Origin: Tessaracoccus sp. MC1679
GTDB lineage: Bacteria; Actinomycetota; Actinomycetes; Propionibacteriales; Propionibacteriaceae
Assembly: GCF_014164775.1 (NCBI RefSeq)
Contig: NZ_JACJGB010000004.1
Location: 1 to 64,000 of the forward strand
DNA length: 64,000 bases
Reading direction: 5' to 3'
The notes beneath the pieces were generated by a model. That model saw nothing but the letters and a program-made list of their open reading frames with translations, was not told the origin of the DNA and searched no databases. Numbering within the stretch: the first letter of the stretch is position 1; every line of letters begins with the position of its first letter. Below, one piece after another: positions 2,212 to 47,845 of the stretch. The position numbers and the translations under genes were made by a program.

Positions 2212-4188
2212 TTAGAGGGTCAGGCCCAACCGGTCCAGCAGCGGGGCGAGCTGCGGATCCCGGCCGCGGAAGCGACGGTAGGTCTCCATCGGGTCCACCG
2301 AGCCGCCGGGGGCCAGCAGCGTCCTGCGGAAGTGGCTCCCGGCCTCGCGCAGAGGGCCGGTCTGCTCGTCGAACCATGCCACGGCGTCGGCGTCCATCAC
2401 CTTCGCCCAGGCGTAGCCGTAATAGCTGGCCGCGTATCCGCCGCCCCAGATGTGGGCGAAGTACTGCGACCGGTAGCGCGGCGGGACCAGGTCGTCGACC
2501 AGACCCCAGCGCTCGAGGGCCGCTCGCTCGAAGGCCTCTACCTCATCCGGCGAGGACGGCAGCTCGTCGAGGGGGGTCATGTGCCAGGCCAGGTCCAGGA
2601 GTGATGCCAGCTCGGTCTCTGCCGTGGCGTAGCCCTGGCCGAACCTGCTGGCGTCCTCCAGCTTGGCCACCCACTCGGGCGGCAGCACCCGCCCCGGCGT
2701 CCAGGCCCAGTGCTCGTTGACCTGGCTGGGGAACTCCACGAAGTCGCGAGACACGTTGGCGCCCGAGCGGGACGCGTACTTCGACTGCGCGAGCAGACCG
2801 TGGAGGGCGTGCCCGAACTCGTGGAACATCGTGATCACGTCATCCCAGGAGATCGACGTGGTGGCACGGGTGTAGTTGCAGTTGTTGGTTACCACTGGCA
2901 GCGTCGAGTCACGGGTGGACTGGTCAACGATGTTGCTCATCCAGGCGCCGCCCTGCTTGGTGGGGCGGGCCCAGAAGTCCATGAGGAACATCCCGAGGGT
3001 GGTGCCGTCGGCGTCCCGAACCTCGAAGACCTGGGTGTCCGGCGCGTGCCCCACCACGCCGTCGACGGGGACGAACGTGATGCCGTACAGCTCGGTGGCG
3101 GCGGCGTACACGGCCGCCAGCACCTTCTCCACCTGGAGGAACTCGCCGAGTTCGGCCTCGTCGAACGCGAACCGTTCCCGGCGCACCACGGCCTCGACGA
3201 AGCCCCAGTCCGCCGCGGAGAACTCAGCCCCCGGGGCGAGCTCGGCGTAGCGCGCCCGCAGGTCCGCCGCCTCCTCGCGGGCCTTGGCGAGCGCTGCCTG
3301 CGCGAGCGGCACCAGCATCTGCAGGATGGCGTCCGTGCGCTTGGCGCACCCAGCCTCGGCGACGATCGCCGCGTGGTGCGGGTACCCCAGCAGGGTGGCG
3401 CGTTCGGCCCTGGCGCGGGCGATGGCGACCACCACGGCACGAGTGTCGAACTCGCCGTCGAGGGCCCGCGTGGTGGAGGCCTCGAAGAGACGACGGCGCA
3501 CGCCCGCATCGGCGAGCTTCACCGCCAACGGCTGCTGCGTGGTGTTGACCAGCTCGATCCGGTAGCCGTCGCCCGCGCGGAGGGAGGACCGCTCGTCGTC
3601 GGCCAGCCCCGCCAGCTCCTGCTCTGTCACGACGACGCCACCGGCGTTGCGGGCCTCCCGGTTGAGCTGCTCGAATCTCGTCGACAACTCCGCCAGCTGC
3701 TGGTTCAGCGCCCGGACCCGGGCCTGGGCCTCGTCATCGAGTTCAACACCTGCCCGGCGGAAGCTGCGGAGGAGCTCGTCCAGTGCGTAGCGGTCCTGCT
3801 CGTCCGCGGGGGTCAGGCCGCCGTCGATGCGTGCGCGCAGCCCCTCCAGTCTGGCGAACAGCGCCCTATCCAGGAAGATCGAGTCTGCGTGCGCGGCAAG
3901 CCTCGGCGACATCTCCTCGTCGATGGCGTCCAGATCCGGGGAGCCATCGGAGGAGTGCACGGCGTAGAACGCGTTGAGGGCGCGCCGCAGCGTGGCCTCG
4001 GCATCGTCCCAGGCGCCCAGGACGTTCTCGACCGTGGTCTCCGACTCGCCGTCGCGGATGAGCGCCAACCCGGCCAACTGCTCGGCCATGCCGATCTCGA
4101 AGGCCGAGCGGTAGTCCGTCGGGGTAGCGGCGGCGAAGTCAGGAAGCGCGAACGGCAGCGCGTTCGTCAGGACCGGATTGGTGGGCAT
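2212..4188 (-). CDS. dcp: M3 family peptidyl-dipeptidase (Dcp-like)
   Basis: This is a 658-residue zinc metallopeptidase of family M3, expected to cleave peptides in the cytoplasm. The zinc motif HEFGH lies at residues 456-460, with a third ligand candidate Glu485 in the DFVEFPSQ segment. The length fits Dcp and oligopeptidase A. The ATG at 4188 has GGAG 6 nt upstream and starts the usual N-terminal sequence. It is the last gene of a minus-strand unit: the upstream ctaA gene runs 50 nt into it, so translation is probably coupled. The link to heme A synthesis looks positional rather than functional. Confidence 0.93.
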   Translation of the reverse strand: MPTNPVLTNALPFALPDFAAATPTDYRSAFEIGMAEQLAGLALIRDGESETTVENVLGAWDDAEATLRRALNAFYAVHSSDGSPDLDAIDEEMSPRLAAHADSIFLDRALFARLEGLRARIDGGLTPADEQDRYALDELLRSFRRAGVELDDEAQARVRALNQQLAELSTRFEQLNREARNAGGVVVTEQELAGLADDERSSLRAGDGYRIELVNTTQQPLAVKLADAGVRRRLFEASTTRALDGEFDTRAVVVAIARARAERATLLGYPHHAAIVAEAGCAKRTDAILQMLVPLAQAALAKAREEAADLRARYAELAPGAEFSAADWGFVEAVVRRERFAFDEAELGEFLQVEKVLAAVYAAATELYGITFVPVDGVVGHAPDTQVFEVRDADGTTLGMFLMDFWARPTKQGGAWMSNIVDQSTRDSTLPVVTNNCNYTRATTSISWDDVITMFHEFGHALHGLLAQSKYASRSGANVSRDFVEFPSQVNEHWAWTPGRVLPPEWVAKLEDASRFGQGYATAETELASLLDLAWHMTPLDELPSSPDEVEAFERAALERWGLVDDLVPPRYRSQYFAHIWGGGYAASYYGYAWAKVMDADAVAWFDEQTGPLREAGSHFRRTLLAPGGSVDPMETYRRFRGRDPQLAPLLDRLGLTL

Positions 4189-5065
4189 GGGATCTCCTCG
4201 TCGTCGACACCAGTAGCCACGACACTGCCGCCGTGAGCACGGTCAATCCCACCATATGCAGGATCACGATGCCGACGGGCAGGCCGAGGAAGTACTGCAG
4301 GTAGCCGATGACGCCCTGGAGGGCCACCGTGATCAGCGTCAGCCTGGCCGCGCGGGCGGGGCGCGCCTGACGGGTGCGGGTGAACAGCCATACACAGGCC
4401 ACGACGAGGGCCACCACCAGCCACGCGGACAGCGCATGGATGCGGGCCACCGACTCGATGTCGGCGCCGTTGCGCGGCGAGGCGGCGTCACCGGCGTGCG
4501 GGCCGGCCCCGGTGACCACGGTGCCGAGAACGATGGAGACCATCGAGGCCGCGAAGGTCGCGACGACCAACCAGCGGGCACCCGGCGCCACGGGGGTGGG
4601 GGAGACCCCGTAGCCCACGCGCAGCGCCCAGACGCACACCACGATGAGAACCACCGACAGCAGGAGGTGCGGCGCCACCCACACCGGATCCAGCTGGGTG
4701 AGCACGGTGATCCCGCCGACGATGGCCTGCAGCGGGATGCCGAGACCCACGCCGAGCGTGATCCACCACAGCTTCGAGCGGGCCCCGCGGTTGCGCCAGG
4801 CGGCGATGAACGCGCCCAGCGCGGCAGCGATCAGGACGAACGTGAGCAGCCGGTTGCCGAACTCGATCACGCCGTGGATCCCGTAGGCCTCGTGAGGGGT
4901 GTAGGACTCGTCGGTGCAGCGCGGCCAGGTGGGGCAACCCAGCCCGGAGCCCGTCAGCCGCACGACGGCGCCGGTCACGATGATGCCCATGTTGCAGATG
5001 AGGGAGATCCACAGCCAGCTGCGCAGCGCGCGCTCGCCGTCGACAAGTTTGGTCAGGACGTCCAC
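4139..5065 (-). CDS. ctaA: Heme A synthase (COX15/CtaA)
   Basis: A 308-residue membrane protein with about eight hydrophobic segments. It converts heme O to heme A for the aa3-type cytochrome oxidase. Visible family marks are the first-loop cysteine pair in GCPTWPRC, the Glu in HGVIEFGNR, and transmembrane His residues in APHLLL, RIHALS and ILHMVG. The start is a GTG at 5065 with GGAAGG upstream; it overlaps the permease stop by 13 nt. The 3' end overlaps the peptidase gene by 50 nt. The ABC pair upstream and sufR on the other side repeat a conserved actinobacterial neighbourhood. SURF1 at 21.5 kb serves the same oxidase. Confidence 0.93.
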   Translation of the reverse strand: MDVLTKLVDGERALRSWLWISLICNMGIIVTGAVVRLTGSGLGCPTWPRCTDESYTPHEAYGIHGVIEFGNRLLTFVLIAAALGAFIAAWRNRGARSKLWWITLGVGLGIPLQAIVGGITVLTQLDPVWVAPHLLLSVVLIVVCVWALRVGYGVSPTPVAPGARWLVVATFAASMVSIVLGTVVTGAGPHAGDAASPRNGADIESVARIHALSAWLVVALVVACVWLFTRTRQARPARAARLTLITVALQGVIGYLQYFLGLPVGIVILHMVGLTVLTAAVSWLLVSTTRRSHAHQSGPDERAAVRAS

Positions 5066-6549: not shown

Positions 6550-6637
6550 GGTGCGCACCCCCCGGGGGTCTCGCACAGTGGACTTAGGGTGTCCTTGCTT
6601 GAAACTTGGAGGAGAATTGGAAAGACTGACGTAGGGT
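6550..6637 (+). promoter_or_regulatory. sufR promoter/operator region (candidate)
   Basis: Between the divergent ABC ATPase and sufR genes there are two abutting palindromes, GGTGCGCACC (6550-6559) and CCCCCGGGGG (6559-6568), then a dyad GGAC-7-GTCC (6580-6594) centred on a TAGGGT box at 6585-6590. A second TAGGGT lies at 6632-6637. SufR proteins repress their own operon, so one of these dyads may be its operator. No experimental consensus was matched. Confidence 0.4.
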
Positions 6638-6658
6638 AATTCGAGCGGGAGGAGCGTC

Positions 6659-7339
6659 ATGTCTGTTGAAACCATCGAGACGGTCGATCTTCCCACCCGT
6701 CGCCGCGTCGTGGACCTCATCCTCAACGACGGCCCGCAGACAGCCAAGCAGCTGGCGGAGCGCCTGCACCTGACCCCGGCCGCAGTGCGGCGTCACCTGG
6801 CGGTGCTCCTCACCAGCGGCGCTCTGACCTCCCATGAGCAGCGGGTGTTCGGCGCACGGGGCCGAGGCCGGCCATCGAAGGTGTTCGTGCTCACCGACGC
6901 AGGCCGCGCCGAGTTCCGGCAGGCCTACGACGACCTCGCCATCGCCGCACTCAGGAGGCTCGCAGTCGCCGCGGGTCCCAGCGCCATCCGGGGAATCGCC
7001 GAGGACCGGGTCGCCTGCATCGAGGAGCGGTTCAGCGCAGCCCGCGAGGCGGACCCGGAGCGACCGGCGGTGGAGATCCTCGTCGAAGCTCTGGCCGCGG
7101 ACGGCTACGCGCCCTCCATCCGGCCGCTCCACAGCGGCGAACAGCTGCTTCAGCACCACTGCCCGATCGCCCACGTGGCGGCCGAGTTCCCGATCCTCTG
7201 TGAGATCGAGACCCAGCTCTTCGCCAAGCTGCTCGGCACCCACGTCCAGCGGCTGGCCACCATTGCCCACGGCGACGGGGTGTGCACCACCAACGTGCCC
7301 CACCGCCTGCCCACCCCTCAAATCCCGAGAAGAAAGTGA
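6659..7339 (+). CDS. sufR: Fe-S cluster-sensing repressor SufR
   Basis: A 226-residue regulator. Residues ~10-75 form a winged helix-turn-helix (ending [16 protein letters not shown]). The C-terminal half holds Cys168, Cys181 and Cys209. The first two reproduce the C-x12-C spacing of SufR proteins; only one further Cys follows, after 27 residues, where the cyanobacterial protein has two. By family it binds a [4Fe-4S] cluster and represses the suf operon when clusters are sufficient. The ATG has GGGAGG upstream. Its stop overlaps the likely sufB start (GTGA). Confidence 0.93.
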
Positions 7340-36998: not shown

Positions 36999-38120
36999 AT
37001 GTCCGGAACACAGCTGCCCATCGTCTTCGATGCGCCCGCCAGGGGTAAGGCCCCCAAGCATTGGCTGGATCTGAGCGTCGACGAGCGGATCGATGCCACC
37101 CAGAGGCTCGGCCTGCCCAGGTTCCGTGCCAACCAGATCTCGCGGCACCTCTTCGACAGGCTCGACGACAGCGTGGCCGGCTTCTCCGACATTCCGGCCG
37201 CCATCCGTGACGATCTGGGGGAGCAGCTGTTCCCGCGCCTGCTCGAGCAGGTGACCCAGCGCACCGCGGACCGCGGCACCACCATCAAGACCCTGTGGCG
37301 CCTGCACGACGGCTCCCTTCTCGAGTCCGTGCTCATGCGCTACCCAGGCCGCTCAACACTGTGCATCTCGTCGCAGGCCGGCTGCGGGATGGCCTGCCCG
37401 TTCTGCGCCACTGGGCAGGGAGGCCTGCAGCGCAACCTGAGCCAGGCCGAGATCACGGTGCAGGCCCTCGCGGCCAACCAGATGCTCGCATCCGGCGTGG
37501 TGCCCGGGGCGTCAGGACGTCTCAACAACATCGTGTTCATGGGCATGGGGGAGCCGCTGGCCAACTACAAGGCGGTGTTGGGCTCCATCCGTACCCTCCT
37601 CGCACCCAGCCCGGACGGATTCGGGATGAGCGCCCGCGGCATCACGGTCTCCACCGTCGGCCTGGTACCCAAGATCCAACAGCTGACGGCCGAAGGGCTG
37701 CCCCTCACCCTTGCCGTGTCGCTGCATGCCCCGGACGACGAGTTGCGCGACGAGATCGTGCCCATCAACACCAGATGGAAGGTGGGCGAGGTAGTCGACG
37801 CCGCGTGGGAGTACGCGCGCACCACGAAGCGTCGGGTGTCGATCGAGTACGCGCTGATGCGCGACATCAATGATTCCGTCGCACGGGCCGACCTGTTGGC
37901 CACGCTACTGAAGAAGCGCGGCGACTGGGGCTGGGTACACGTCAACCTCATCCCGCTGAATCCCACGCCGGGCTCGAAGTGGACGGCCTCCCGCAAGGAG
38001 GACGAACGCGCCTTCATGCAGACCCTGGAGCGGCGAGGCGTCCCGGTCACCCTCCGCGACACCCGCGGCTCCGAGATCGACGGCGCCTGCGGCCAGCTGG
38101 CCGCCTCGGTCAGCCAGTAG
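36999..38120 (+). CDS. rlmN: Radical SAM methylase RlmN (23S rRNA A2503 / tRNA A37)
   Basis: A 373-residue radical SAM enzyme that forms 2-methyladenosine in rRNA and tRNA. The [4Fe-4S] motif is Cys129-x3-Cys133-x2-Cys136 (CGMACPFC). The C-terminal Cys in IDGACGQL is the partner Cys of the mechanism. Other marks are [11 protein letters not shown] and [17 protein letters not shown]. The ATG follows cdsA after 24 nt. Confidence 0.95.
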
Positions 38121-38133
38121 CTCGATGACCAGA

Positions 38134-38150
38134 TGGGGGACCCGCCCCCA
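38134..38150 (+). terminator. Short hairpin after rlmN (candidate)
   Basis: TGGGGG-ACCCG-CCCCCA, a 6-bp stem 13 nt after the rlmN stop with no T-run. It may end the pyrH-rlmN transcript before gdhA. Confidence 0.4.
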
Positions 38151-38186
38151 CACGCACCTCCTGGGTGGCTACTATCGTCCCGCTGA

Positions 38187-39545
<1,359 letters not shown>

Positions 39546-39546
39546 A

Positions 39547-39623
39547 GTCCATATCCAGATGGAGGGGTGGCAGATCGCCCGAGCCGGTGCGCCGCAGCCA
39601 GGACATGATTGATCAGTGGTTCC
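39547..39623. mobile_element. Half copy of the MITE-like element
   Basis: A 77-bp stretch, one base after the gdhA stop, that matches 45013-45089 with only three differences. It contains the right half of that element and ends with the terminal sequence ATTGATCAGTGGTTCC. The left half is missing. It lies between gdhA and the convergent kinase gene. Confidence 0.85.
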
Positions 39624-39627
39624 CCAG

Positions 39628-40320
39628 TCACGGCTCGCCCCACAGGGTGCGGTAGCGCCGGATCCGTTCAGGGTCCGGCGCTTCGCCGTACCCGGCCCAG
39701 AACGCGTCTTCGTGGCCGGGGCCGAAGTTCCACTCCAGCGACCATGACGCGATGGCGAGATCAGCCCAGCGGTCCGCCACGCCCAGGTCGCCGACGTCGA
39801 CGATGCCTACGAACCTTCCGTCGTCGGCGACCAGCGTGTTCGGGGCGCACGGGTCGCCGTGAGCCACCACCAGCACATCGACGTCGTCCTGCACACCGAT
39901 CCAGTCGGCCGGACCGAAGGGGCAGTCGCTCGGATCAAGGCTGTGCAGCATCGCCAGCCCCTCCCCGATGGCGGCCGCCGCACGGTCGGGGTGTGCCTGC
40001 CCACGCGCGTCCACCGCGGAGTGACCGGGCAGCCCCATGGTGACGATCAACCAGCCGGCGTCGAGTTCTTCGTATTCCACCATCCGGGGGGATGGGAACC
40101 GGCTGGCCAACCACGAGAGCCGCTCGGCCTCCGGGAGGAGGTCTTGAGGGCTCCACTTGGCGAACAAGGGGGTGGTGTCAGGACCGACGACGCGGGCGGT
40201 GAGCCCGCCGAGCTCGTTGAGCCAGACCAACTCGTCGACGCGGCGCCGGTTCTGCGCGGCCCATCGGGTGATGGCGAACGGGACCGGGGTTCCGGCGGGG
40301 GGAGGGGTGGCAAGGGGCAT
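39628..40320 (-). CDS. APH-family phosphotransferase
   Basis: About 230 residues with the aminoglycoside/choline kinase fold. The Brenner motif is HGDPCAPNTLV, and the metal-binding Asp lies in VDVGDLGVADRWADLA. These motifs match the APH(3') type, but family members also act on other small molecules, so drug resistance is only a possibility. I chose ATG 40320, where CAAGAT lies 6 nt upstream; ATG 40341 would add 7 residues. It is a single gene, divergent from dxr. Confidence 0.82.
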   Translation of the reverse strand: MPLATPPPAGTPVPFAITRWAAQNRRRVDELVWLNELGGLTARVVGPDTTPLFAKWSPQDLLPEAERLSWLASRFPSPRMVEYEELDAGWLIVTMGLPGHSAVDARGQAHPDRAAAAIGEGLAMLHSLDPSDCPFGPADWIGVQDDVDVLVVAHGDPCAPNTLVADDGRFVGIVDVGDLGVADRWADLAIASWSLEWNFGPGHEDAFWAGYGEAPDPERIRRYRTLWGEP

Positions 40321-40372
40321 GGGACGATCTTGGCACGACATCGCCGCCGGATCTCAGCCGACGGCGGGCGCA

Positions 40373-40378
40373 TAGACT
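40373..40378 (+). promoter_or_regulatory. Putative -10 box, leaderless dxr
   Basis: TAGACT ends 6 nt before the GTG at 40385. Confidence 0.5.
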
Positions 40379-40384
40379 TACCTG

Positions 40385-41584
40385 GTGCGCACCATCGCCC
40401 TGCTGGGCTCCACCGGATCCATCGGCACCCAGACCCTGGGGGTGATCTCCAGCAGGAGGGACCAGTTCCGGGTGCTGGCGCTCTCGGCCTCGGGAGGCAA
40501 TCTGGAGCTGCTCGCACGCCAGATCATCGAGTTCGAGCCGGAGACCGTGGGGCTGGCCAGGGCCAGCGCCGCCCAGGAGCTCCAACGTGCGCTGTATGCC
40601 GAGGCGGACCGTCGCGGATGGAGCACCGGCCAGTACCAGCTGCCGAAGCTGCTGCTCGGCCCAGAGTCCTCCACGCAGCTCGCCGGGGCGGGCGTCGACG
40701 TCGTGGTCAACGCCATCACCGGGGCGGCCGGTCTCGGCCCCACGCTCGCGGCGCTGGCCGCGGGAAGCACGCTGGCGCTGGCCAACAAGGAGTCGCTGGT
40801 GATCGGCGGCAGGTTGGTCGTGCAGGCCGCTGCCCCAGGCCAGATCGTCGCTGTGGATTCCGAGCACTCGGCGTTCGCCCAGGCGCTGAGAGCCGGACGG
40901 GCAGACGAGGTGCGCCGGCTGATCCTCACCGCCTCCGGCGGCCCGTTCCGAGGCTGGAACCAGGAGCAGATCGCTGAGGTCACTCCGGAGCAGGCGATGG
41001 CGCACCCCACCTGGAACATGGGACGGGTGATCACCATCAACTCCGCCACCCTGGTCAACAAGGGCCTCGAGCTGATCGAGGCCGCGCTGCTGTACGGCGT
41101 CGGCTTCGACGACATCGTCGTCACCGTGCACCCGCAGTCCATCGTGCACTCGATGGTGGAGTTCCACGACGGTTCCACGATCGCCCAGGCGTCGCCGCCG
41201 GACATGCGCCTGCCCATCGGTATCGCGCTGACCTGGCCGGAGCGGCTCGCTGACGCCGCCGCCCCGTGCGACTGGACCAGCGCGGCCACCTGGACGTTCG
41301 AGCCCCTGGACCATGAGACCTTTCCCGCCGTCGAGCTCGCTCGCAGGGCCGGCAAGGCGGCCGGTACCGCACCCGCCGTGTACAACGCCGCCAACGAGGC
41401 GTGCGTCGACGCCTTCTGCGCAGGGACCATCGGTTTCCCGGACATCACCAGGATCGTGGCCGCGTGCGTCGAGGAGCACCTGCAGACCGGACACGTGGGC
41501 GACGACGCGCTCACGGTGCCGGCGGTCCTCGCCGCGGACCGGTGGGGGCGCACCAGGGCGTCCGAGCTGGCGGTCGCGCGATGA
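40385..41584 (+). CDS. dxr: 1-deoxy-D-xylulose 5-phosphate reductoisomerase
   Basis: A 399-residue NADPH enzyme that makes 2-C-methyl-D-erythritol 4-phosphate, the committed step of the MEP isoprenoid pathway. Marks are the cofactor motif GSTGSIGTQT, the metal-binding VDSEHSA segment and the flexible-loop SGGPFRGW. It shares the locus with ispG of the same pathway, with the protease gene rip1 between them. GTG start; the stop overlaps rip1 by 4 nt (ATGA). Confidence 0.95.
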   Translation: MRTIALLGSTGSIGTQTLGVISSRRDQFRVLALSASGGNLELLARQIIEFEPETVGLARASAAQELQRALYAEADRRGWSTGQYQLPKLLLGPESSTQLAGAGVDVVVNAITGAAGLGPTLAALAAGSTLALANKESLVIGGRLVVQAAAPGQIVAVDSEHSAFAQALRAGRADEVRRLILTASGGPFRGWNQEQIAEVTPEQAMAHPTWNMGRVITINSATLVNKGLELIEAALLYGVGFDDIVVTVHPQSIVHSMVEFHDGSTIAQASPPDMRLPIGIALTWPERLADAAAPCDWTSAATWTFEPLDHETFPAVELARRAGKAAGTAPAVYNAANEACVDAFCAGTIGFPDITRIVAACVEEHLQTGHVGDDALTVPAVLAADRWGRTRASELAVAR

Positions 41585-42867
41585 CCGCCGTGCTCACGGT
41601 CCTGTTCGCCATCCTCTTCTTCGCCCTCATCATGGCCTCGATCGCTCTCCACGAGGTGGGGCACCTGGTGCCCGCCAAGCTGTTCGGGGTCCGGGTCAGC
41701 AAGTACTTCGTCGGGTTCGGCAAGACGCTGTGGTCCACCACCCGGGGCGAGACGGAGTACGGCATCAAGGCCATCCCGCTCGGCGGCTACGTGCGGTTGA
41801 TGGGCATGTACCCGCCCCGGCGTCCCTCAGCCAAGCCGGGTGGGTGGCTGACCCGGATGGCTGATGAGGCCCGCGCCGTCGAGTACGAGGACATCACCGC
41901 GGCTGACAAGGGCAGGCTGCTCTACGAGAAGAAGACCTGGCAGAAGATCGTGGTGATGCTGGGCGGGCCACTGATGAACATCCTGATCGCCTTCGCCATC
42001 TTCCTCGGGATCAACCTGGCCTACGGGGTCCCGACGGCAACCCTGACGGTGGCCTCGGTCTCCGAATGCGCCGTCCCGGTGGACCGCGCGGACCGCACCT
42101 GCCGCCCCGGTGACCCGGAGACCCCCGCTGTCCTGGCCGGGGTGCAGCCGGGCGACATCCTGCTCGCGTTCAACGGCGCCGAGCTCACCGGCTGGGAGCA
42201 GATGGGCGACCTGATCCGGGACAACCGCGACGGCGCGGCGCGCGTCGTCGTCGAGCGCGATGGCCAACGGATCGAGCTGCCAGAGGTCCGCACCGTCCTG
42301 AATTTCGTGCCTGACCGGTTGGACCCCTCCCGCACCGTCGAGGCCGGGTTCCTGGGGGTGAGCCCAACCATCGAGCAGCGGCGTGGAGGTGTGGCGGCGA
42401 CGGCCGCCCAGATGTGGACCATGACGAAACAGTCGGTCGTCGCACTCGCCAGCTTCCCCGTGCGGGTCTACAACGTTGCGGCTGACCTGGTGACCGGGCA
42501 GCCGCGTGACCTCAACTCGCCTCTGTCGATCGTGGGCGCCTCCCGCGTGGCAGGGGAGATCGGTGCCAGCGACGAGCTCGAGGTGGCGGACAAGGCGGCC
42601 ACCTGGCTGTCGCTGCTGGGATCTGTGAACCTGTTCGTCGCGCTGCTCAATCTCGTGCCGCTGCTGCCACTCGATGGCGGCCACGTGGCCGCGGCTATCT
42701 GGGAGTGGCTCCGCAGGCACACAGCCCGCCTGATGGGCCGGCCGGACCCCGGCCACACGGACACGGCCAAGGGCCTACCCGTCACCTACCTCGTCGGCGG
42801 TTTCCTCCTGCTCGGCGGCGTGGTGCTGATCCTTGCAGACATCATCTCGCCGATCCAGATCCTCTAG
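41581..42867 (+). CDS. rip1: Site-2 protease (RseP/Rip1)
   Basis: A 428-residue intramembrane zinc protease that cleaves anti-sigma factors and similar membrane proteins. The zinc site is His24-Glu25-x2-His28 (HEVGH) with Asp365 in the LDGGH motif. A PDZ domain (about 175-255, AGVQPGDILLAFNG) lies between. The ATG at 41581 overlaps the dxr stop. The order dxr-rip1-ispG-GNAT is the same as in mycobacteria (Rv2870c-Rv2867c). Confidence 0.94.
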   Translation: MTAVLTVLFAILFFALIMASIALHEVGHLVPAKLFGVRVSKYFVGFGKTLWSTTRGETEYGIKAIPLGGYVRLMGMYPPRRPSAKPGGWLTRMADEARAVEYEDITAADKGRLLYEKKTWQKIVVMLGGPLMNILIAFAIFLGINLAYGVPTATLTVASVSECAVPVDRADRTCRPGDPETPAVLAGVQPGDILLAFNGAELTGWEQMGDLIRDNRDGAARVVVERDGQRIELPEVRTVLNFVPDRLDPSRTVEAGFLGVSPTIEQRRGGVAATAAQMWTMTKQSVVALASFPVRVYNVAADLVTGQPRDLNSPLSIVGASRVAGEIGASDELEVADKAATWLSLLGSVNLFVALLNLVPLLPLDGGHVAAAIWEWLRRHTARLMGRPDPGHTDTAKGLPVTYLVGGFLLLGGVVLILADIISPIQIL

Positions 42868-42925
42868 GAGGGGTGCGGTGATCCGGACCGCATCGCCGTG
42901 CGACCAGCGGTGTGCGCGATGCGGG

Positions 42926-42931
42926 TAGGCT
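42926..42931 (+). promoter_or_regulatory. Putative -10 box, leaderless ispG
   Basis: TAGGCT ends 7 nt before the ATG at 42939. Confidence 0.5.
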
Positions 42932-42938
42932 GTGCGCC

Positions 42939-44081
42939 ATGCCCGTGAACCTCGGTATGCCCCCCGCGCCGGCCCCCGTTCTCACCCCCCGCCGCAAGAC
43001 CCGGCAGATCAAGGTGGGCAAGGTCATGGTTGGCGGCGACGCGCCGATCAGCGTCCAGTCGATGACCACCACAAAAACCACGGACATCAACGCCACGCTC
43101 CAGCAGATCGCGGAGCTGACGGCCACGGGATGCGACATCGTCCGCGTCGCGGTGCCCAGCCAGGACGACGCCGAGGCGCTGCCCATCATCGCGATGAAGT
43201 CGCAGATCCCCGTCATCGCCGACATCCACTTCCAGCCGCGCTACGTGTTCGCGGCCATCGACGCGGGGTGCGCCGCGGTGCGCGTGAACCCGGGCAACAT
43301 CAAGCAGTTCGACGACAAGGTCGCGGAGATCGCGAAGGCGGCGGCTGACTCCGGGGTGTCACTGCGGATCGGCGTCAACGCGGGCTCGCTCGACAGGCGC
43401 CTGCTCGCCAAGCATGGCGCACCCACCGCGGAGGCGCTGGTCGAGTCGGCGCTGTGGGAGGCCTCGCTGTTCGAGGACGTCGGCTTCCACGACTTCAAGA
43501 TCTCGGTCAAGCACAACGACCCGGTGGTGATGGTGCGCGCCTACGAGATGCTGTCGGAGAAGTGCGACTACCCGTTGCACCTCGGCGTCACGGAGGCCGG
43601 GCCGGCTTTCCAGGGCACCATCAAGTCGTCGGTCGCGTTCGGGGCGTTGCTCAGCCGCGGCATCGGCGACACCATCCGCGTCTCGCTGTCCGCCCCTCCG
43701 GCGGAAGAGGTCAAGGTGGGCCTCAAGATCCTCGAGTCGCTCAACCTCAAGCCCCGCAAGCTCGATATCGTGTCGTGCCCGTCCTGCGGCCGGGCCCAGG
43801 TGGATGTGTACACGCTCGCCGAGCAGGTGACCAAGGGGCTCGAGGGCATGCAGGCGCCGCTGCGCGTGGCGGTCATGGGCTGTGTCGTCAACGGCCCGGG
43901 CGAGGCCCGCGAGGCGGACCTGGGTGTGGCCTCGGGTAACGGCAAGGGCCAGATCTTCGTCAAGGGCGAGGTGATCAAGACGGTACCTGAGGACGAGATC
44001 GTCGAGACCCTGATCATCGAGGCGCAGCGCCTGGCCGCAGAGATGGGCGAGGTGGGCGCGCCGAGCGTCTCCGTCTCCTAA
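42939..44081 (+). CDS. ispG: 4-hydroxy-3-methylbut-2-enyl diphosphate synthase
   Basis: A 380-residue [4Fe-4S] enzyme of the MEP pathway. Three cysteine ligands are visible: Cys280 and Cys283 (SCPSCGR) and Cys315 ([11 protein letters not shown]). The N-terminal barrel ([15 protein letters not shown]) is normal. It depends on clusters made by the suf operon in this window. I chose ATG 42939; the frame is open a little further upstream, but that part overlaps the promoter box. Confidence 0.95.
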
Positions 44082-44084
44082 GCT
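44079..44084 (+). promoter_or_regulatory. Putative -10 box, leaderless GNAT gene
   Basis: TAAGCT ends 7 nt before the ATG at 44092; its first bases are the ispG stop codon. Confidence 0.5.
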
Positions 44085-44091
44085 GTCGCCC

Positions 44092-44928
44092 ATGGCTTCC
44101 CGGGTGCGCGCGTTGGGCAGCGCCGACCGGGATGAGGCCCTGGAGTTCCTCGCCCGGAGCCCGGTGGAGAACCTGTTCCTCGCCTCCAAGGTGGCCACCT
44201 ACGGGATAGACCGTCGTCGCCTCGGAACTGTCTACGCCTATCAGCGCGGCGGAGAGGTCTCAGCCCTCTTGCTGGACGGCGGCACCGTCTTCGTCGCCGG
44301 CTTCGATCCCGGGGCCCTGCCCGCGTTCGTGGGGCAGCTCGGCCCGGTGCGTCGCTGCACCTCCATTCTGGGTCCGGCCATCTCGGTGCTCGGGCTCCAC
44401 CTCGGCCTGACCGAGCGCTGGCGTGGTTCGTGGGGCCCCGTCGCCAACATCAGGGCGCGCCAACCCCTCATGCTGCTGGATGCCGACCCGCAGGTTGCCG
44501 CGGATGAGCGGGTCCGGAAGCTGACCGTCGACGACTACGCCAGCTATCTCGACGCCTCGGTCCACATGTACACCGACGAGATCGGCAGCTCGCCGTTCAA
44601 GTACGGATCCGGTTATGAGCGTTTCGTGAGGCAGCGCCTCGTCGAGGGAGACGCCTACGGCATCGTCGACGAGCGTGGCAAGGTGATCTTCAAGGCGGAC
44701 CTCGGCCCCAAGCTGGGGGGACAGGCGCAACTCCAGGGGGTCTGGGTGGATCCGGAGTTGCGCGGGCAGGGGCTGAGCGTCCCCGCGCTCTCCGGCATGC
44801 TCCACCTGGCGATGCGGCGCTTCCCGCGGATCAGCCTCTACGTCAACGACTTCAACACCCCCGCAATCAGGGCGTACGAGCGGCTGGGGTTCGTCGAGGT
44901 GGGGGCACTGGCCACGGTCCACTTCTAG
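44092..44928 (+). CDS. GNAT acetyltransferase with DUF4081-like N-terminus
   Basis: A 278-residue protein. The first half resembles DUF4081, and the second half is a GNAT domain with the acetyl-CoA motif GVWVDPELRGQGLS and the closing NTPAIRAYERLGF. It corresponds to the gene found after ispG in mycobacteria (Rv2867c). Substrate unknown. The TAG stop lies in the CTAG that borders a mobile element, so the stop may be part of the insertion target. Confidence 0.88.
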   Translation: MASRVRALGSADRDEALEFLARSPVENLFLASKVATYGIDRRRLGTVYAYQRGGEVSALLLDGGTVFVAGFDPGALPAFVGQLGPVRRCTSILGPAISVLGLHLGLTERWRGSWGPVANIRARQPLMLLDADPQVAADERVRKLTVDDYASYLDASVHMYTDEIGSSPFKYGSGYERFVRQRLVEGDAYGIVDERGKVIFKADLGPKLGGQAQLQGVWVDPELRGQGLSVPALSGMLHLAMRRFPRISLYVNDFNTPAIRAYERLGFVEVGALATVHF

Positions 44929-45089
44929 GGAACCACTGATCAATGCTGTTCTCGGTGAGGACGTGCCGGGCGGGAAGAGATGGCGCCACTACATCTGGTG
45001 CGTGTACTCGACGTCCATATCCAGATGGAGGGGTGGCAGATCGCCCGATCCGGTGCGCCGCAGCCGGGACATGATTGGTCAGTGGTTCC
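44929..45089. mobile_element. MITE-like fold-back element, CTAG flanks
   Basis: A 161-bp element with 16-bp terminal inverted repeats (GGAACCACTGATCAAT / ATTGGTCAGTGGTTCC, one mismatch) and CTAG on both sides (44925-44928, 45090-45093). Inner segments also pair (ATCTGG with CCAGAT, CCGGGCG with CGCCCG), so nearly the whole element can fold back. It holds no gene. The CTAG target and short inverted ends suggest mobilisation by an IS5-like transposase, none of which is in this window. The right 77 bp recur at 39547-39623. Confidence 0.85.
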
Positions 45090-45103
45090 CTAGGGCCATG
45101 GTC

Positions 45104-45109
45104 TAGGCT
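45104..45109 (+). promoter_or_regulatory. Putative -10 box of proS
   Basis: TAGGCT, 33 nt before the proS start, whose own ribosome binding site is GAGAAAGG. Any -35 element would fall at the right end of the MITE-like element, about 45081-45087, where no strong match is seen. Confidence 0.4.
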
Positions 45110-45142
45110 GACCCCCGGTCCACCCCGAGAAAGGCGCCACCC

Positions 45143-46912
45143 ATGCTCACTCGCCTGTCGAGCCTGTTCGTCCGCACCCTCCGCGACGACCCAGCCGACG
45201 CAGAGGTGCCCAGCCACCGCTGGCTGGTGCGCGCCGGCTACATCCGCCGGGCCGCCCCCGGGGTGTACTCCTGGCTGCCGCTGGGCCTGAAGGTGCTGCA
45301 GAAGGTGGAGGCCGTCGTCCGGGAGGAGATGGACGCCATCGGCGCCCAGGAGGTCCGCTTCCCGGCGCTGCTGCCCCGTGAGCCCTATGAGCTCACCGGC
45401 CGCTGGTCTGACTACGGCGACAACCTGTTCCGGCTGCAGGACCGCAAGGGCGCGGATCTGTTGCTCGGCCCCACGCATGAGGAGATGTTCACCCTCATGG
45501 TCAAGGACCTCTACAGCTCCTACAAGGACCTGCCGTTGTCGCTGTACCAGATCCAGACCAAGTACCGCGACGAGGCCCGCCCGCGGGCCGGCCTGCTCCG
45601 GGGTCGCGAGTTCATCATGAAGGACTCCTACTCCTTCGATGTCGACGACGCCGGCCTCGAGGCGAGCTACCTCCGGCACCGCGACGCCTACCAGCGGATC
45701 TTCGAGCGCCTCGGCCTCGAATTCGTCATCGTCTCCGCCATGGCGGGCGCCATGGGCGGCTCACGCTCGGAGGAATTCCTGGCAGTGGCCGACAACGGCG
45801 AGGACACCTTCGTCCGCTCGCCCGCCGGCTACGCGGCCAACGTGGAGGCCGTGCGGTTCGCCGCTCCCGCGCCGCTGCCGGTCGAGGACGCACCCGCCAT
45901 GGCGCCGATCGACACCCCGGACGCCGGATCGATCGCCGCCGTTGTCGACATCCTCAACCGCGACCGTCCCGATCGCTCCTGGACCGGTGCCGACACGCTC
46001 AAGAACATCCTGTTCCGGGTCACTGACGCCGACGGGTCCACGCGCGCGCTCGCCGTCGGGCTCCCCGGGGATCGGGAGGTGGACCTCAAGCGGTTGGCCG
46101 CAGCCCTCGAGCCGTCCGTCGCCGAGCCCTTCGGCGCCGAGGACTTCGCGAAGTTCCCAGACCTGGTGGTGGGCTACATCTCCCCGGTGTCGCTGGACGG
46201 GACCCGGGTGCTCGGCAAGGATTCGGCCACCGGCATCGAGTACCTCGTGGACCCCCGGGTGGTGGAGGGCACGTTCTGGGCCACCGGCGCCAACCTCAAG
46301 GACACGCACCTGGTGGGCGTCACCGCGGGCCGCGACTTCGTGGCCGATGGGGTCCTGGACGTGGCGGAGGTCCGAGAGGGCGATCCCGCGCCGGACGGCT
46401 CCGGGCCGCTGACCCTGGCCAGGGGAATCGAGATGGGCCACATCTTCCAGCTCGGGCGCAAGTACGCCGACGCGCTGGGTCTGAAGGTCCTGGATTCCAA
46501 CGGGAAGCTGGTCACGGTCACGATGGGCTCCTACGGCGTGGGCGTCTCGCGAGCCGTGGCCGCGGTGGCAGAGACCACCTGCGACGACAAGGGCCTCTGC
46601 TGGCCGCTGGCGCTGGCGCCGTTCCAGGTACAGGTGGTGGCCACAGGCAAGGATGCGGCGGTGTTCGCCGAGGCCGAGCGGATCGCGGGAGAGCTGTCGG
46701 GCCGCGGGGTCGACGTCCTCCTCGATGACCGCAAGGCAAGCCCGGGCGTGAAGTTCGCCGACGCCGAGATCATGGGGATGCCCATCATCGTCGTGGTGGG
46801 TCGCGGACTGGCCGACGGTGTGGTGGAGCTGCGCGACCGGCGAACCGGCGGGCGGCAGGAGCTGCCCGTGGCCGAGATCGTTGCCCAGGTTCTGCTGGCA
46901 GCCGGGCGCTGA
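45143..46912 (+). CDS. proS: Prolyl-tRNA synthetase
   Basis: A 589-residue class II synthetase of the bacterial type with an editing insertion. Motif 2 region is [19 protein letters not shown], the insertion runs about 225-400, motif 3 is [13 protein letters not shown] and the anticodon-binding domain is C-terminal. It charges tRNA-Pro. GAGAAAGG precedes the ATG. It ends 3 nt from the convergent DUF4439 gene. Confidence 0.96.
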
Positions 46913-46915
46913 GCC

Positions 46916-47845
46916 TCAGACCCAGCCTGGCCAGTGGGGGAGGGGCCGGCCCATGGCCCCCACGGAATCGGCGGCCCCGACCATGAGCTCCAGCCAACGC
47001 TCACGGCCCGGCCCTCCCGCTGCCACCAGCCGGCCGAGGCCCTCCAGGAGCCCCAGCTCCAGCGCCCCCCATCCCGCCCGGATCTCCTCGCTGGTGGTCA
47101 TCGCCGTGGGCAGCTCGAACGTCGCGGGCTGCACAGGTGCGACCGCCGGGAGCGCGTTGCGCAGCTCGTTGCGCAACTCCTTCGCGGTGGCCAGCCGGGC
47201 TGTTCCGAGGTCGCGCAGGGGGTCGTCGCCGTCGAGTCGGCCGATCCCCACGCCGAGCCCGTAGATCAGCGCCCAGGAGTGGCTGAGGGCGATGGGGAGC
47301 GACGCGGCCACGGTGGTGCCCTGAAAGTGACGCGGCTCCGCCTCGCCTTCGACGGGTGCTGCCCCCACCGTCGTCAATCCGCGGGACGTGCACGCCGCGG
47401 AGGCGTACAGCAGCCTGAGCGGCTGGGCCTGTGCGGCCAGCGCGGCGCGGCGCAGCGAGGTCTCCGCCGCCGTCGACGCCGCCGCCAGCGACTCCTCAAG
47501 CCCCGCGGGCGGCGGGGTCGCGGGGGAGTGCGGTGGCAGGTCGAAGACGGGCTCTCCCCCCGCCACCGGGTCAGCTGCCCGCAGGCGGTCCAGCACGGCG
47601 CCCAGAGCGGTTACGGCGGCGTCGGCCCAGGCGGGATAAGTCGCCGGGGCGCCCTCGGCGGAACGACCCGCCTCGATGGCGGCAACCAGCCCCGCCACCG
47701 CGGCTGCGGCCTCAGCGGCCTCGGCGGTCTGGCTGGGGGTCGGATCCGGCTCGGGCGCAGGGAGCGACGGCTGGGAAATGGTGGGGTCCAGGCCGCAGCC
47801 CGCAACGAGCAGGGCCGCCAGGACCGCGCGCCTGCCACATCTCAT
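46916..47845 (-). CDS. DUF4439 lipoprotein (ferritin-like)
   Basis: About 309 residues with a lipoprotein signal (basic start, hydrophobic run, lipobox VAGC near 14-17), an acidic Pro-rich linker, and an Ala-rich helical body. The C-terminal part (ALSHSWALIYGLGVGIG and onward) resembles the ferritin-like DUF4439 domain that occurs beside proS and rimP in actinobacteria. Function unknown. The start at 47845 is supported by TAGGCT 7 nt upstream. Confidence 0.82.
   Translation of the reverse strand: MRCGRRAVLAALLVAGCGLDPTISQPSLPAPEPDPTPSQTAEAAEAAAAVAGLVAAIEAGRSAEGAPATYPAWADAAVTALGAVLDRLRAADPVAGGEPVFDLPPHSPATPPPAGLEESLAAASTAAETSLRRAALAAQAQPLRLLYASAACTSRGLTTVGAAPVEGEAEPRHFQGTTVAASLPIALSHSWALIYGLGVGIGRLDGDDPLRDLGTARLATAKELRNELRNALPAVAPVQPATFELPTAMTTSEEIRAGWGALELGLLEGLGRLVAAGGPGRERWLELMVGAADSVGAMGRPLPHWPGWV

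Follow-up and report, generated by a model that had tools for sequence, protein, structure and literature searches.

A 161-bp element at positions 44929-45089 of the window (the whole 64,000-nucleotide stretch of Tessaracoccus sp. MC1679 DNA analyzed here) is likely to be a non-autonomous element that is moved by borrowed transposases and carries a selected single-stranded fold, probably RNA. The usual view of MITEs is that the transposase constrains the ends and the middle drifts freely. The reverse is found here: compensatory change maintains the middle, and both ends are replaced together in one sub-group of copies. A kept middle with exchanged ends points to the fold itself as the feature probably retained by evolution. 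The features of the window are as follows.

39544..39623, + strand: half-length copy that spans a single hairpin arm between the apex and the A-type right end and is followed by CCAG
44925..44928, no strand: left CTAG target duplication, whose TAG terminates the upstream ORF
44929..45089, + strand: full-length mobile hairpin element with A-type (IS5-like) ends, recognized by its fold, its copies and model R1
44929..44944, + strand: left terminal inverted repeat GGAACCACTGATCAAT
44955..44979, + strand: box L, conserved across genera, with 2 mismatches to the motif here
44980..45038, + strand: central hairpin of 59 nt, species-variable in sequence with pairing retained
45039..45064, + strand: box R, conserved across genera, with 0 mismatches here (reversed-pattern control, 0)
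45074..45089, - strand: right terminal inverted repeat, GGAACCACTGACCAAT reversed
45090..45093, no strand: right CTAG target duplication

A letter-by-letter reading places the 161 bp between two CTAG, and the 16-bp ends are inverted copies that agree at 15 of 16 positions, with one mismatch. This confirms the length, ends and flanks given in an earlier sequence-only reading of this DNA. Model R1 matches 44945-45073 on the + strand, and the window copy is itself part of the model. Folded as single-stranded DNA, the element is predicted to form one hairpin over its whole length with an energy of -51.3 kcal/mol compared to a mean of -27.6 for shuffled sequences (z -7.6; 0/200 as stable), in agreement with the earlier proposal of a single hairpin spanning nearly the whole element. 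The upstream ORF (44092-44928) terminates in the TAG of the left CTAG, and the next co-directional ORF downstream begins at 45143. We take these neighbors to be a GNAT protein and proS, prolyl-tRNA synthetase, respectively. The left CTAG contains the upstream stop codon and the upstream gene thus remained intact. The minus-strand ORFs that touch the element (44260-44943 and 44867-45679, the latter spanning all of it) were rejected as genes because they are mostly antisense to the two neighboring genes, and with these discounted the description of the element as gene-free holds. A scan of 44850-45150 returned no promoter-like or terminator-like site and no intrinsic terminator (a GC-rich stem plus a T run). 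Rfam release 15 gave nothing at the gathering score over 38000-47000, and permissive thresholds applied to the element and four loci gave only weak miRNA and snoRNA matches far below the gathering scores.

The 3.57 Mb source genome (17 contigs) was searched with the 161 bp and contains dispersed copies at 16 places, comprising 10 full-length copies, 4 half-length copies (71-80 bp) and 2 fragments; the 16 places give 17 rows because one place appears on both strands. Full copies are 90-94% identical to the window copy. Exact CTAG is present on both flanks of 5 of the 10, and in the remainder one flank or both depart from CTAG at one to three letters. The element was detected by blastn in 13 of 39 Tessaracoccus genomes, source included. 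The orthologous place is empty in relatives. The 260 bases after the upstream gene lack the element in T. lapidicaptus and in a T. flavescens MAG, where the downstream gene follows the upstream gene at once, and an empty site with the next gene immediately adjacent is also present in Tessaracoccus sp. OS52, T. rhinocerotis and [Pseudopropionibacterium] massiliense. The box R core is absent from the 600 bases after the gene in all 13 relatives with a complete upstream gene, and the start motif of the downstream gene falls within the same 600 bases in 7 of the 13. The upstream gene ends with TGA in the empty-site relatives, and insertion into a CTAG would therefore require that TGA had already become TAG in the window lineage. 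Insertion of the window element at a CTAG that was duplicated is well supported. The element is short and gene-free with terminal inverted repeats, dispersed copies, a CTAG duplication and empty sites, and it behaves as a MITE, as the sequence-only reading had proposed.

Copies share an architecture of variable ends, box L, a centre usually of 59 nt, box R and again variable ends. Box R (26 letters, ≤2 mismatches) is present in 18 of 198 Propionibacteriaceae genomes representing six genera, and a reversed-pattern control found none. The centre is 59 nt long in 31 of 52 copies and 60-61 nt in 8 more; the other copies are shortened, longer, truncated or, like L057 and L156, misplaced by the box search, and 18 of the 52 were aligned. 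The R1 body model matched 28 of 391 genomes of the order, all in the Propionibacteriaceae and in seven genera, one of which (G153) is represented solely by a weak match. Class-wide, R1 matched 1 of 394 genomes, which is the source genome. Plasmids and phages (blastn) and viral contigs (exact box R pattern) gave no match.

The centre diverges widely between species and keeps its self-pairing. An alignment of 18 diverse copies has 62 predicted pairs, 41 with compensatory double changes. Pairing is retained in 93.6% of cells compared to 79.6% after shuffling (0/500 as high) and 35-43% when the partners are slid. A held-out set of 31 copies from 12 genomes outside the model was newly aligned; it excludes L343 and L344, both weak matches, and copy L365 of G172. 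The held-out copies have 45 pairs, 36 of them double-changed, and 92.7% pairing versus 37-48% with slid partners, and these values replicate the first result without being wholly independent of it, because the copies were retrieved by an R1 match, which favors pairing. The alifold energy of the held-out set is -61.4 on the + strand and -18.3 on the - strand. The interior, which is predicted to be structured with covariation beyond the controls, is one long hairpin (box L, central hairpin, box R) kept by compensatory changes.

The two strands of the hairpin are not equivalent. Wobble cells in the 18 copies, read on the + strand, comprise 134 G-U versus 14 A-C, with G-U:A-C ratios of 80:3 in the boxes, 29:4 in the centre and 25:7 in the end helix. 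Inheritance of the boxes does not account for the ratio in the diverged centre. Because the 62 pairs were predicted from the + strand, they are biased towards G-U on it, and folding the strands separately avoids this. In separate foldings the + strand is more stable in 18/18 copies (mean -106.3 vs -83.2) and in 31/31 held-out bodies (-81.6 vs -58.5), with 252 G-U pairs in the strands' own folds on + and 40 on -; the copies share ancestry and these strand counts are not 49 independent observations. The favored strand is the + strand of the window. Wobbles occupy fixed columns 42, 43, 48 and 54 of A1 in 13 to 16 of the 18 copies, across genera. Families with A-type ends on other bodies were used as controls. 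Six G050 rows differ between strands by ≤5.2 kcal/mol, and the one copy of the second family, L281 of G100, differs by 19.4 kcal/mol. One of two control families is strand-biased, and the stability gap alone is thus not decisive. Correction of one arm by the other would not keep fixed-column wobbles, and selection on a folded single strand is therefore preferred. We infer that selection acts on the folded single strand. RNA is its most likely form and single-stranded DNA a less likely one; G-T would be favored over A-C by a DNA fold of this kind as well. The G050 loci (L277-L280) belong to a separate MITE family of 111 bp, in which A-type ends enclose a palindromic body unlike the present one. 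The G100 locus (L281 229-386) is a single 158-bp element that folds much better on one strand; it was considered as a distant family member and rejected, having no R1 match at E ≤ 10.

Copies in the source genome have two types of ends. The A type has GGAACCACTGATCAAT-like ends and comprises 7 full copies that are 89-97% alike, 2 of them with exact CTAG on both sides. The B type begins with GAGTGTG or GAGCCTG followed by CTGAACAAT and comprises 3 full copies, all with exact CTAG, that are 97.5-99.4% alike. The B copies are more alike than the A copies and hence look younger. Source B and source A copies agree at 9/16 and 9/16 positions of the ends and at 53/59 of the centre; source B and G098 B copies agree at 16/16 and 16/16 positions of the ends and at 19/59 of the centre. 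Across copies, the conserved interior is joined to IS5-type ends, to two IS1182-like types or to other ends. The simplest way to keep the centre and swap the ends is recombination between copies within the conserved boxes that they share, and the ends would be exchangeable, probably by this route.

The search with A-type ends covered 198 genomes of Propionibacteriaceae and led to an IS5-family transposase in another genus (G109). The G109 element measures 1194 bp and has ends GGAACCGCTGATCAAC and GGATGCGCTGATCTTT. The left and right ends of the window element match the G109 end at 14/16 and 13/16 letters, a comparison that supports an IS5 relation of the window copy's ends. The assignment of CTAG-type targets to the IS5 family made in the sequence-only reading agrees with the CTAG duplications of G109 and with the target consensus Py-T-A-Pu in the excerpted text of PMC5493358, where CTAG accounts for 15 of 24 listed sites. 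Relatives of the A-type transposase occur in 8 of the 198 genomes, and none of the three genomes G000, G029 and G004, which carry A-type copies, is among the 8. IS5-family elements in G051 and G055 have A-like ends and CTAA duplications, and IS5-family relatives in G078 and G149 have one A-like end beside CTAG. A decayed IS5-family relict with ends GGAAGCGCTGATCAAG and GGAATCACTGATTTTC is present in G036, which is of the same genus and has many A copies, and G018 gives a further weak match to the A-type transposase (E 4e-4). The search for an insertion sequence with similar ends thus yielded IS5-family elements in related genera and a relict in a congener. In G109 (L219 504-4095), three IS5-family elements lie in direct tandem and neighbors share a single CTAG; the reading frame of the third is broken.

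The putative parent of the B type is an IS1182-family transposase, split into two halves that lie at the termini of contigs C11 and C13 of the source genome. A B-like end lies 1 kb from the end of C11 and is followed by the first half, and the second half and the other IS1182 end are at the start of C13. The halves match NCBIfam NF033551 with E values of 6e-38 and 2.9e-53, each below the whole-protein cut-off. The left end of the element, CTAG GAGCCTGCTGAACAAT, is identical to the B right end at 16/16 letters. The two halves would belong to a single IS1182-family element into which a further insertion has landed at the contig break, and the interrupting sequence is presumably another insertion sequence. 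This element (L170 about 6575-6718 and L171 about 1-120), apparently interrupted by insertion-like sequence, is the only IS1182-family element with B ends that was found. Intact IS1182 relatives with CTAG duplications are present in G008 and G013 and are 77-78% identical over 269 residues. The sequence-only reading had found no transposase in the window and had placed a parent element elsewhere in the genome. The former holds for relatives of the IS5-family and IS1182-family transposases found here, which have no match within the window. The latter holds in part: the IS5-family A transposase has 0 matches in the source genome, and the interrupted IS1182-family element shares its ends with the B copies.

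Further kinds of ends occur outside the source genome. The C kind is GTGGGTGGTGTC in G003 and GAGGGTGGTGTCAAAC in G184, and both resemble the GTGGGTGGTGTT ends of an IS1182-like element in G036. A C-type parent was found at E ≤ 1e-60 in G036 alone of the 198 genomes, as one element. Neither the copies with GGCCTGTTTCGAAAG or GCCTGTTGCGAAA ends nor the D- and E-type ends have a parent in the genomes examined. The G036 element (L185 about 3030-5040) lies within the CTAG-type flank of a copy. Copies in G179 (L326 and L363) have GTGCCTGTTGCGAAA ends and no CTAG; L363 has ATTTAT on both sides, perhaps indicating a different target rule.

The half copy at 39544-39623 is a second family member in the window that is absent from the earlier finding. 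Half copies stop at the hairpin apex. Three of the four in the source genome (L011, L013 and L014) are flanked by CTAG on each side, at no more than one base from the apex break, and lack the inverted end at that break. The half copies listed from G003, G029 and G036 are mostly without CTAG at the apex break. One guess is that one-ended insertion of an apex-cut piece would explain the CTAG at these breaks.

The orientation of copies relative to neighboring genes was compared using simple, home-made, codon-based gene calls, on which all of the following counts rest. Both neighbors were called for 51 of 67 copies: 24 have both genes against the + strand and 6 have both with it (p 0.0014), 13 lie between converging genes and 8 between diverging genes. 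A single orthologous insertion accounts for L038, L039, L041 and L043, and L156 is misplaced; removal of L039, L041, L043 and L156 leaves 21 versus 5 (p 0.0025). A second measure, which omitted seven loci by name, gave 17 versus 4 (p 0.007) in 71 copies, 35 with both neighbors called. The + strand is thus usually untranscribed, which speaks against a + RNA made by plain read-through and hints at selection against transcription of the + strand. GC skew of the flanks shows no bias (38/71 positive). At twelve gene ends the overlap with the flank is exactly 4 bases, the length expected when the stop codon lies within CTAG.

These data are consistent with a mechanism in which a transposase acting in trans would have moved the window element, the folded single strand is the probable unit under selection, and the fold would persist by borrowing whichever related transposase is at hand. 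The fold most likely serves the element itself, through recognition or tolerance during spread, rather than one host gene because the copies sit at unrelated places; this is the least certain part of the proposal. The folded strand is usually untranscribed, as if its RNA might be harmful when read through. A bolder version, which is plausible although somewhat short of an even chance, is that the copies are a mobile non-coding RNA lineage in which one fold defines the element across genera of the Propionibacteriaceae and the ends are swapped among transposase families.

The simplest alternative is an ordinary MITE, an IS5-family derivative with a passenger body whose hairpin is kept by template-switch repair between the arms. 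The IS5-like ends, CTAG duplication, multiple copies and absence of genes all fit this account. Quasi-palindrome correction would yield paired changes without selection, and could thus give those seen here, and the A-ended L281 with its unrelated body is strand-biased as well. Arm correction gives Watson-Crick pairs, however, yet fixed-column wobbles are conserved across genera, and the excess of G-U over A-C extends to the diverged centre (29:4). The centre is also retained while the ends change. Box R (≤2 mismatches) is absent from G008, G013 and G050, none of the box R matches listed in G109 and the source genome lies at the insertion sequence copies found, the bodies having been compared only partly, and no insertion sequence containing the element body was found in the genomes examined. 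We regard an ordinary MITE as unlikely. What stands of the earlier MITE/IS5 reading is the MITE behavior, the CTAG and the IS5 relatives with similar ends; beyond that reading, some copies have IS1182-type ends, and the body is a covarying, strand-biased hairpin. A different possibility is that DNA structure is selected, with the hairpin serving as transposition substrate or target and a cruciform or one unwound strand bringing the two ends together. New insertions of IS1272 (IS1182 family) are reported in PMC5678879 to have replaced inverted repeats, and some IS1182-family members are cited there as targeting palindromes. The B copies have IS1182-family ends, and the half copies break at the apex, three of the four in the source genome with CTAG there. 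A cruciform would fold both strands and favor neither, the IS1182 relatives found here duplicate CTAG unlike the no-duplication mode described in PMC5678879, and the flanks lack the GC-skew bias that a replication-strand effect might give. Selection on DNA structure in either form is a serious contender that we consider rather improbable.

A host-beneficial 3' element, acting as a terminator or mRNA stabilizer after genes, would account for the long hairpin and for the 12 gene ends that share exactly 4 bases with the CTAG flank. According to the excerpts of PMC5493358, bacterial genomes are depleted in CTAG, and a gene-sparing insertion at a stop codon consequently needs no function. No terminator-like site was detected, the orthologous place is empty in relatives, and the orientation is biased away from the transcribed strand; a host role of this kind is very unlikely. 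The view that the element is an ancient chromosomal feature of the locus rather than an insertion has its intergenic position in its favor and nothing more, and it is refuted by the dispersed copies and by the orthologous places without the element, leaving it a negligible probability. The preferred reading is a selected single-stranded fold on a non-autonomous element.

The element was compared with known systems. It shares its size, 16-bp inverted ends, CTAG duplication and lack of genes with IS5-family MITEs, but differs in a body that is conserved between genera, covaries and has one-strand wobbles, and in that nearly the same body also occurs with other ends. The IS1182 family (NF033551) is linked to it by the 16 letters shared between the source-genome IS1182 end and the B right end; unlike IS1182/IS1272 elements as described in the excerpts of PMC5678879, the element lacks a transposase, and CTAG was duplicated with no stem-loop replaced. 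Bacterial MITEs with stem-loop transcripts are described in the available text of PMC10969869 and PMC2229807. ERIC, Correia/NEMIS, YPAL and RUP are likewise mobile repeats of 100-200 bp whose transcripts are long stem-loops, and orientation matters for ERIC (PMC2229807, in part); in a comparison by description, the several kinds of ends on one body, the measured covariation and the one-strand wobbles set the present element apart from ERIC, Correia/NEMIS, YPAL and RUP. Streptococcal BOX is modular and shows, as a precedent, that a single body can have different borders, the same boxB modules of S. suis being bordered by boxA/boxC or boxE/boxF (PMC3049150, from its excerpts), but its architecture is different and no tandem modules are present here. 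REP/RAYT repeats are associated with a Y1 HUH transposase, whereas the inverted ends and CTAG duplication here point to DDE transposases instead. The literature matches listed include no description of this element and no precedent for a body kept by covariation with exchanged ends, and no paper on a Tessaracoccus MITE was found; subscription journals were mostly outside the scope of these searches. If the preferred reading is true, two questions become open to experiment: whether small repeats of this sort in bacteria are passive or have a selected function as RNA or single-stranded DNA, and how a non-autonomous element can last longer than the transposase responsible for its initial spread.

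Reduced copies were also observed. A B-type copy in G007 (L050 1490-1560) is shortened to 63 bp and has both ends and CTAG on each side. At G036:C27:29542-29578 (in L250), two ends lie nearly back to back over about 37 bp in what is apparently a reduced element.
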